Virus record (IMG/VR): IMGVR_UViG_3300023174_000693
Span: 1-22,042 of that record
Source: a virus
Strand: one strand, 5' to 3'
Length of the DNA: 22,042 nucleotides
Shown piece by piece: positions 3,587 to 4,635 of this stretch. A program made the translations under genes and the position numbers. The notes under the pieces were generated by a model. It was given only the letters and a program-made list of their open reading frames with translations, did no database searches and was not told the DNA's origin. Within the stretch, counting starts at the first letter, position 1. Each line of letters begins with the position of its first letter.

Positions 3587-3840
3587 CCCCTGACTGCTTC
3601 CCATCCCGCCTGGAGTACCTAGACTGGGTACACACGGCCAGGATGCACCCGCCAGCTCCTGGACATGAATTCTGTGAGGATTGTTTACCAGAGTATCAAG
3701 CCCAGATGATCAGGGTCAGACGCTGCCAGTACCCAGGCACCACGTTCATAGCCCACGGTGAGGGACGAGACTTCTCCATCATCGGGAAACGACCACAGGC
3801 AATAGTGTGGAAGTTGAAGAGAGATGCAGAAGTGATGTAA
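3583..3840 (+). CDS. Hypothetical small cysteine-containing protein (85 aa)
   Basis: Start ATG 3583 overlaps the stop of the preceding gene; GGAGGTT at 3573-3579 is a good ribosome site. The middle of the protein has H-E-F-C-E-D-C (the two cysteines about residues 31 and 34) and a later R-R-C (about 48), so one small zinc site is possible. The C-terminal half (GRDFSIIGKRPQAIVWKLKR) looks beta-rich. It is the last gene before the terminator at 3891-3921. No family is recognised. Confidence 0.7.
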   Translation: MTPDCFPSRLEYLDWVHTARMHPPAPGHEFCEDCLPEYQAQMIRVRRCQYPGTTFIAHGEGRDFSIIGKRPQAIVWKLKRDAEVM

Positions 3841-3890
3841 GATGAAGGTTGTTCAGTGCTGTCTCCTCTCTGCCATGACTCCGGCAGTTC

Positions 3891-3921
3891 AACCCAGGTT
3901 ACTTGATCTGGGTTTTTTTTT
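3891..3921 (+). terminator. Rho-independent terminator of the early plus-strand cluster
   Basis: AACCCAG 3891-3897 pairs with CTGGGTT 3908-3914 around a 10-base loop and runs directly into a nine-T tract (3913-3921). It lies 51 bases after the last early gene, as expected for a transcript end. Confidence 0.88.
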
Positions 3922-3926
3922 GTGTT

Positions 3927-4028
3927 AGGGTTTACCCTGTTGCCGTGGTAAGCGACAGAGAAGACTTACTCATGCATCCTCCCCATCGCCGGGGTTACCA
4001 CAGGGTGCAGCAGTAAGTCTTTTTTTTC
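3927..4028 (+). ncRNA. Nested hairpin with T-tract: second terminator or 3' end of a small RNA
   Basis: A 10-bp perfect inverted repeat (AAGACTTACT 3961-3970, AGTAAGTCTT 4012-4021) is followed by eight T through 4027. Inside it, GCATCCT 3974-3980 pairs with AGGGTGC 4002-4008 (one U-G wobble on the plus RNA), then CCCC 3981-3984 with GGGG 3991-3994. The unpaired side TTACCAC 3995-4001 is exactly complementary to GTGGTAA 3945-3951 upstream, and CCCTGT 3935-3940 to ACAGGG 4000-4005. AGGGT/ACCCT (3927-3938) forms a further small hairpin. This exceeds what a simple terminator needs and allows alternative folds. Confidence 0.55.
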
Positions 4029-4040
4029 GCCCACAAAACC

Positions 4041-4299
4041 GCACTCCTCGCGTTAGCAGTGCACCTAGATGGGTGGCAGGGAAGAGAACATAGGCTAGGG
4101 AGTACCACCCCCTGCAAGCCTCGCAGCGTTCCAGAGCGACTGCATAAGTGTCGAACCTCCTGGGTGGTCTCAGGCTCGGCATGATTGAATCTGGCGTCAA
4201 GCGAGCACTGGTAGGAACCATCTGTATAGATGAGTGACCCTGCGGGTGAGGCGGTAGGGCATACCACCTTGGAGGTTCTTTTGTCTGGAATATCCGACA
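4041..4299 (+). ncRNA. Candidate multibranched structured RNA (unrecognised)
   Basis: Hairpins tile this GC-rich block: GCACT/AGTGC (4041-4045, 4058-4062); GGGTGG/CCACCC (4071-4076, 4105-4110); GCAGCG with CG-A-CTGC (4123-4128, 4137-4143, bulged A). A closing stem pairs 4153-4168 with 4263-4278: eight pairs, one U-U mismatch, one G-U and six more. Inside it lie CAGGCTCG with CGAGC-A-CTG (4171-4178, 4202-4210, bulged A) extended by TTGA/TCAA (4185-4188, 4197-4200), CATCT/AGATG (4219-4223, 4228-4232) and ACCC/GGGT (4237-4240, 4244-4247). Outside is TGTC-T-GGA with TCCGACA (4282-4289, 4293-4299). The G-U in the closing stem slightly favours the plus strand. I know no RNA family that matches. No dedicated promoter is seen. 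Confidence 0.4.
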
Positions 4300-4313
4300 G
4301 GAGAACGAACAGC

Positions 4314-4353
4314 CACCGCTAACCACCGATAAGCACCGATAAGCACCGTTAAC
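4314..4353. repeat. Four tandem 10-bp direct repeats (operator or iteron-like array)
   Basis: The units are CACCGCTAAC, CACCGATAAG, CACCGATAAG and CACCGTTAAC, adjacent with no spacers; consensus CACCG-N-TAA-S. A period of 10 bp puts each unit on nearly the same DNA face. The last unit contributes to the perfect palindrome CCGTTAACGG (4346-4355). The array ends 8 bases before the TTGACA box, an ideal position for an activator or repressor; an origin-type iteron role is a less likely alternative. Confidence 0.75.
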
Positions 4354-4361
4354 GGACACAG

Positions 4362-4390
4362 TTGACAACCTGTTTTATCTGTGATCTAGT
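4362..4390 (+). promoter_or_regulatory. Sigma70-type promoter of the recombination operon
   Basis: A consensus -35 TTGACA (4362-4367) is followed after 17 bases by TCTAGT (4385-4390), which matches four of six -10 positions. The -35 lies inside the small inverted repeat GTTGACAAC. Transcription would start near 4397 and read the gene at 4426. The weak -10 and the adjacent repeat array suggest a regulated promoter. Confidence 0.65.
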
Positions 4391-4425
4391 GTTGTCTCTC
4401 TCGTATCTTATCTATAGGTGATCTT

Positions 4426-4635
4426 ATGAAACTCTGCATTCACTGCAAACATCTAATCCCACGTCCTGGTGACGATGACTACGCTTTAGCCAAGTGTGGT
4501 GCCTTCTTCACCCTGCACCCTGTCTCTGGTGCGAAGCTCTATACCTACGCTTTCAACCAACGCACATTCCTAGACGGTAAGTGCGGGATGCCTGCTGCTT
4601 TCTTCGAAGCTATTGAGGGACACAACGATGAGTGA
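4426..4635 (+). CDS. Small zinc-binding protein (69 aa)
   Basis: AGGTG at 4416-4420 precedes ATG 4426. Four cysteines are placed as C4, C7, C24 and C53, with the last two in A-K-C-G and G-K-C-G contexts, a pattern seen in small phage proteins with one zinc site. It is the first gene of the recombination operon, and its stop overlaps the exonuclease start. It could be a DNA-binding accessory protein, but that is inferred from location. The exact family name is not known to me. Confidence 0.75.
   Translation: MKLCIHCKHLIPRPGDDDYALAKCGAFFTLHPVSGAKLYTYAFNQRTFLDGKCGMPAAFFEAIEGHNDE

Follow-up and report, generated by a model that had tools for sequence, protein, structure and literature searches.

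The window analysed here, a virus record of 22,042 bases, contains two neighbouring structured RNAs of the plus strand, RNA1 and RNA2 (Table 1), both of which are absent from Rfam 15. That RNA2, at 4039-4285, is a real structured RNA we regard as nearly certain. Comparison with related viral sequences establishes the fold of each RNA, the strand, the linkage of RNA2 to RNA1 and the replacement of RNA2 by other RNAs behind RNA1 in further phages. We lean towards reading the whole stretch 3903-4285 as an autonomous phage cassette of noncoding RNAs that would act in trans.

Table 1. Features in and around the RNA cassette (window positions, all on the plus strand).
Feature	Position	Strand	Basis and details
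Putative sRNA promoter	3814..3843	+	TTGAAG, 18 nt, TAAGAT; sequence match
Double-hairpin sRNA	3853..3921	+	T-run terminator; resembles RF02278 (Betaproteobacteria toxic small RNA)
Putative RNA1 promoter	3903..3931	+	TTGATC, 17 nt, TAGGGT; overlaps upstream sRNA terminator
RNA1	3939..4028	+	pseudoknot on terminator-like hairpin, ends in T-run
RNA2, structured RNA	4039..4285	+	covariation; 3' boundary from insertion point in other phages
RNA2 5' domain	4040..4082	+	hairpins 4040-4042/4050-4052 and 4062-4065/4072-4075; loop 4045-4048 pairs 4078-4081
Hairpin A	4092..4121	+	loop 4104-4109 kisses loop B
Hairpin C	4123..4143	+	bulge A4139 conserved; loop 4131-4135 pairs 4190-4194
Hairpin B	4148..4182	+	loop 4163-4168 kisses loop A
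Helix H	4206..4248	+	4206-4209/4245-4248 and 4211-4213/4241-4243; encloses variable hairpin
Hairpin D (3')	4252..4266	+	3' strand repeats loop A sequence
Putative promoter of downstream operon	4362..4390	+	TTGACA, 17 nt, TCTAGT; sequence match, TTGACA element conserved

A first-pass annotation, made from the letters alone, had singled out the gap at 4041-4299 as a candidate structured RNA outside known classes. The gap indeed holds no conserved gene, is GC-rich (0.56, modestly above its flanks) and can be folded into about eight hairpins. It is flanked by a small gene ending at 3840 and by an operon whose first gene, beginning at 4426, is small and precedes genes for a YqaJ-like nuclease and RecT (Pfam); a scan of the window for tRNA and tmRNA genes returned none. 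The proposed element was correctly placed but too small, as RNA1 belongs with it, and its pseudoknots had been missed. The statement that the genome has almost no spacer elsewhere was also too strong, since the stretches 860-1330 and 2234-2620 are likewise conserved without a clear large gene. The former is GC-rich, shares 73-82% identity with relatives and could hold a further structured RNA.

Relatives were collected with the YqaJ-like protein as query, which yielded 68 viral contigs. In about 50 of these the stretch ~3850-4290 is kept, wholly or partly, at 73-92% identity, and in two of them (L039, L046) it is 88% identical, compared with only 75% for the YqaJ-like protein. The block 4358-4425 in front of the operon is about 90-97% identical among relatives. 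A search of named phage records at the DNA level found no relative of the window region; one such record, MW202484, contains RNA1 and a partial match to RNA2. Scanning 84,980 species genomes by pattern gave a single match, which lacks the U-run and was judged to be due to chance, and the cassette thus appears to be a phage trait. No matching RNA was found in a literature search, which is weak evidence given that many subscription papers lie outside its coverage.

The alignment of RNA2 comprises 35 distinct sequences and was tested against a named structure, in its final version of 61 pairs, with two controls in which either the 3' letters were shuffled between sequences or the pairing partners were slid. 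In the real alignment 98.5% of the cells are paired, as opposed to 92.5% after shuffling and 34-44% after sliding. Changes on both sides of a pair, which the first-pass annotation had expected in homologous gaps, occur at 19 pairs in 152 cells (11 pairs and 51 cells in the shuffled control). The pairs include 169 G-U cells but only 16 A-C cells, and this excess fixes the plus strand, which had already been favoured from the sequence. A model of RNA2 also recognises distant phages, at E-values of 1e-8 to 1e-35 that are to be read as rough. Coding of the gap on the minus strand, named earlier as an observation that would speak against an RNA, was rejected: the frame at 3970-4368 is interrupted in 26 of the 35 RNA2 sequences, whose lengths moreover are spread over all three residue classes. 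Together with the lack of an Rfam match, the compensatory changes, the wobble bias and the broken minus-strand frame bear out the proposal of a new plus-strand RNA. The expectation that the gap should fold better than shuffled sequence failed, with z -0.74 on the plus strand, where 44 of 200 shuffled sequences reach an equally good energy, and z -1.06 on the minus strand. This says little about RNA2, because the RNA is pseudoknotted and the energy calculation is blind to pseudoknots.

The most strongly covarying element of RNA2 is hairpin B, with double changes in six of its seven outer pairs. Helix H was derived from an unconstrained consensus fold; two helices placed initially in the 3' part (F and G) were dropped in its favour, as both the consensus fold and the distant relatives supported H. 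The earlier model differed here. It had a multibranched domain closed by a 16-position stem (4153-4168 with 4263-4278), but this stem is paired in 82.7% of the cells both in the real and in the shuffled alignment and shows no excess covariation, and its 5' strand is part of hairpin B and of the kissing loop with hairpin A; the multibranched fold is unsupported. The G4162-T4269 pair of that stem gives way to a pair between G4162 and C4171, which changes from G-C to C-G in L050. Of the two bulged adenines that had been noticed, A4139 stands as a conserved bulge, whereas A4207 is paired with U4247, with a change from A-U to G-C in 10 of the 35 sequences.

Three pseudoknot-type contacts connect these elements. 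The contact of loop C with 4190-4194 reads CCAGA/UCUGG in the window and recurs with other letters in relatives: CCGUGA/UCACGG (L053), CAGCGA/UCGCUG (L158), UAGCGA/UCGCUA (L157), CAGUGA/UCACUG (L085) and UCAGAGA/UCUCUGG (L081). Similarly, the pairing of the first loop with 4078-4081 takes the forms ACUCCA/UGGAGU, UCCGC/GCGGA and GGG/CCC in relatives. The kissing pair between loops A and B (ACCACC/GGUGGU) is mostly invariant and less certain than the other two contacts, since its covariation rests mainly on L040, where loop A is UGUCAU and loop B AUGACA. Hairpin D carries a second copy of the loop A sequence in its 3' strand, and a change in one copy tends to be accompanied by a change in the other (ACCACC in the window, GCCACC in L047, GUCAUC in L040). 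Because of this joint change, the 16-position stem may survive as an alternative state of the RNA.

RNA1 combines a short hairpin (3939-3942/3953-3956), the loop of which (3945-3951) pairs with 3995-4001, and a long stem (3961-3970/4012-4021 and 3973-3979/4003-4009) followed by the T-run. Searching for its conserved stem upstream of RNA2 gave 90 and later at least 119 viral stretches. Over 33 pairs in 51 aligned sequences, 247 cells show double changes, compared with 67 after shuffling; nine stem pairs appear invariant merely because the search required them. The pseudoknot helix, examined in 100 distinct sequences, has a mean length of 8.7 bp as opposed to 6.5 bp when strands are exchanged between sequences. 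It occurs in about 35-40 different sequences (41 are listed, a few of which are alternative pairings) and reaches up to 15 bp. The same fold with other stem sequences is present in contigs that were found by other means (L056, L057, L060, L064, L203, L205, L207, L210, L214, L217). The best promoter match stops 11-13 nt short of the pseudoknot strand at 38 of 73 distinct RNA1 loci. This match is perfect in L179 (TTGACA-16-TATAAT) and weaker in the window. One contig carries two tandem copies of RNA1 (L004:5225-5420).

To avoid selection for RNA1, linkage was assessed by scanning viral contigs with the RNA2 motif alone. This gave 23 new loci, 22 of which match the RNA2 model and 20 of which extend far enough upstream. 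RNA1 lies just upstream of RNA2 in all 20 (19 recognised by model; in L218 a pseudoknotted terminator hairpin ahead of RNA2 was recognised by eye), and the spacing is 10-15 nt in the nine loci inspected. Elsewhere, RNA1 is followed by other RNAs: by Betaproteobacteria-1 (RF02932) in L008, with 105 bits, by further payload RNAs without a family name in other phages, and in L199 (245-496) by a tRNA-Met gene in place of a structured payload. The payloads of other families contain an exact direct repeat of 7-9 nt, one copy being internal and one at the 3' end (L008, L131, L155, L171, L177, L074, L167, L109, L153), and its copies are identical within one phage and differ between phages.

The small RNA at 3853-3921, which directly precedes the RNA1 promoter, is conserved in relatives. 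Its own putative promoter has -10 variants there (TAAGAT/TATGAT/TAGGAT), and its first hairpin covaries. It shares with RF02278 the UGUCUCC start, the first hairpin, UUCA and the terminator hairpin, and is matched by that model over the full length with 33.7 bits (E 5.5e-5), but it stays below the gathering cut-off of 50; it is a neighbour distinct from RNA1 and RNA2. Double-hairpin sRNAs of this type have been described from Burkholderia (PMC5688073), and the resemblance suggests a betaproteobacterial host.

Rfam 15 gave no match in the whole window at the gathering threshold, and at E<=10 over 3830-4440 only chance-level matches over RNA1 and none over RNA2. Phages are nevertheless already known to carry structured RNAs, and one of the sister payloads belongs to a named family. 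This family, RF02932, fills the RNA2 slot behind RNA1 in the sister phage L008 and its look-alikes L012, L017 and L037; it is similar in length to RNA2 if its 3' part is included, and its 3' end likewise reads CCACCU followed by a U-rich stretch. Its sequence and helices are, however, unlike those of RNA2, and its model has no match in the window and leaves RNA2 unmatched even at E<=10. The pistol ribozyme has its pseudoknot strand between the P2 and P3 5' strands, whereas that of RNA1 lies between 3' strands; RNA1 also lacks an Rfam match. The int-alpA RNA (RF02996) is likewise a predicted phage-borne sRNA, but is a separate element in which we saw no similarity to RNA1 or RNA2. It occurs immediately 3' of RNA2 in L071 (7448-7515), where part of the sequence resembles several enterobacterial and Vibrio phages.

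Conservation frequently stops at 4286, and the RNA2 boundary at 4285-4286 is an insertion point for accessory genes in other phages: L001 and L019 carry one that resembles a DNA methyltransferase, L007 and L022 a different one, and L037 too has an insertion. In most members an [A/G/U]UG triplet stands at a fixed position just 3' of RNA2. A conserved ORF beginning there was considered and rejected, because relatives retain the start-like triplet while most of the frames behind it are short and bear no relation to one another, with 13 residues in the window, the methyltransferase-like gene in L001 and L019, and others elsewhere. The wider neighbourhood also varies: the cassette precedes the recombination operon in the window, is flanked in L177 by genes that resemble those for scaffold and coat proteins, and in L071 and L101 follows a gene that resembles a nuclease (these genes assigned by eye).

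For the autonomous cassette, we infer that transcription would start from the putative promoter at about 3938, and that RNA1 would fold at the extreme 5' end as a pseudoknot on its terminator-like hairpin. Some transcripts would probably stop at about 4028 and others continue into RNA2. As the most likely mechanism, RNA2, whose shape is constant although its sequence varies, would bind a protein or ribonucleoprotein of host or phage in the course of infection, and RNA1 would form a stable 5' section regulating or protecting the synthesis of RNA2. The constancy of RNA1 combined with exchanged payloads, varied neighbours and the separate putative promoter of the operon argues for such a cassette acting in trans, and the promoter match at a fixed distance from RNA1 fits its autonomy. 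Against it counts that RNA2 always stands behind the U-run of RNA1, so that its synthesis would require read-through. The main rival, which we consider unlikely but worth serious attention, is a cis-acting leader, i.e., a riboswitch or translational switch, in which loop B would have two alternative partners, loop A and the 3' strand at 4263-4271, beside GGAGG at 4271-4275, and its choice would expose or hide a start site at about 4281. The repeat shared by loop A and the 3' strand hints at a switch and fits cis regulation as well; all three strands change in L040, the strand 4155-4168 is able to cover GGAGG, and the start-like triplet at a fixed distance would equally be expected of a translation leader. 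However, covariation of the closing stem is not above shuffled, and in place of the one constant type of downstream gene that marks riboswitches and cis leaders, the following genes differ between phages, and a separate putative promoter precedes the operon. For these last two reasons we favour the trans-acting cassette over a leader.

It is less probable still that RNA1 is a promoter-proximal antitermination element, comparable in effect to put of phage HK022, by which polymerase would read through the terminator of RNA1 and then through untranslated structured RNAs. HK022 put is a structured RNA with which a phage transcript begins. RNA1 would share this position if transcription starts where the promoter match at fixed distance predicts, and it precedes other RNAs and even a tRNA. 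HK022 put is not known to be followed by a terminator of its own or to contain a pseudoknot like that of RNA1, whereas RNA1 itself ends in a strong terminator-like hairpin, and antitermination would leave RNA2 unexplained. We give little credence to RNA2 as an ornate RNA that forms multimers by kissing of loops A and B between molecules. The conserved kissing pair, co-changed in L040, would fit, and GOLLD, ROOL and OLE assemble RNA-only complexes (PMC12286853). Like RNA2, these three are large pseudoknotted noncoding RNAs, and some are phage-borne. Yet at ~250 nt RNA2 is much smaller, none of the three models matches the window or the scanned relatives, and kissing within one molecule accounts for the same data. 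That the gap is just GC-rich DNA which folds easily, with no functional RNA, agrees with the folding energies, but it is practically excluded by the 152 compensatory cells, the distant relatives, the wobble bias and the linkage to RNA1.

Returning to the cassette, a more far-reaching version can be put forward tentatively: an RNA-only phage module in which a universal pseudoknotted leader, RNA1, would be transcribed first and deliver interchangeable pseudoknotted payloads, each with a partner-switching internal repeat of its own 3' end, which would act on the host and be swapped like morons. Phage genomes are searched for proteins, and most of the large RNAs that they encode have yet to be described. 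In the present case a single leader fold persists across differing gene orders, and the RNA that accompanies it is exchanged between several families, of which only one is in Rfam. If the cassette is transcribed as predicted, a search for RNA1 and for the sequence behind it could uncover numerous phage RNAs in one step, and would provide strongly constrained molecules with which their host targets could be fished out directly.

Two minor observations concern the surroundings. Short direct repeats at 4321-4352 of the window (CACCGATAAG, CACCGATAAG, CACCGTTAAC) are operator-like and lie directly before the operon promoter. In L008, positions 1966-2025 match the Type II hammerhead ribozyme with a score of 38.3 against a cut-off of 37.
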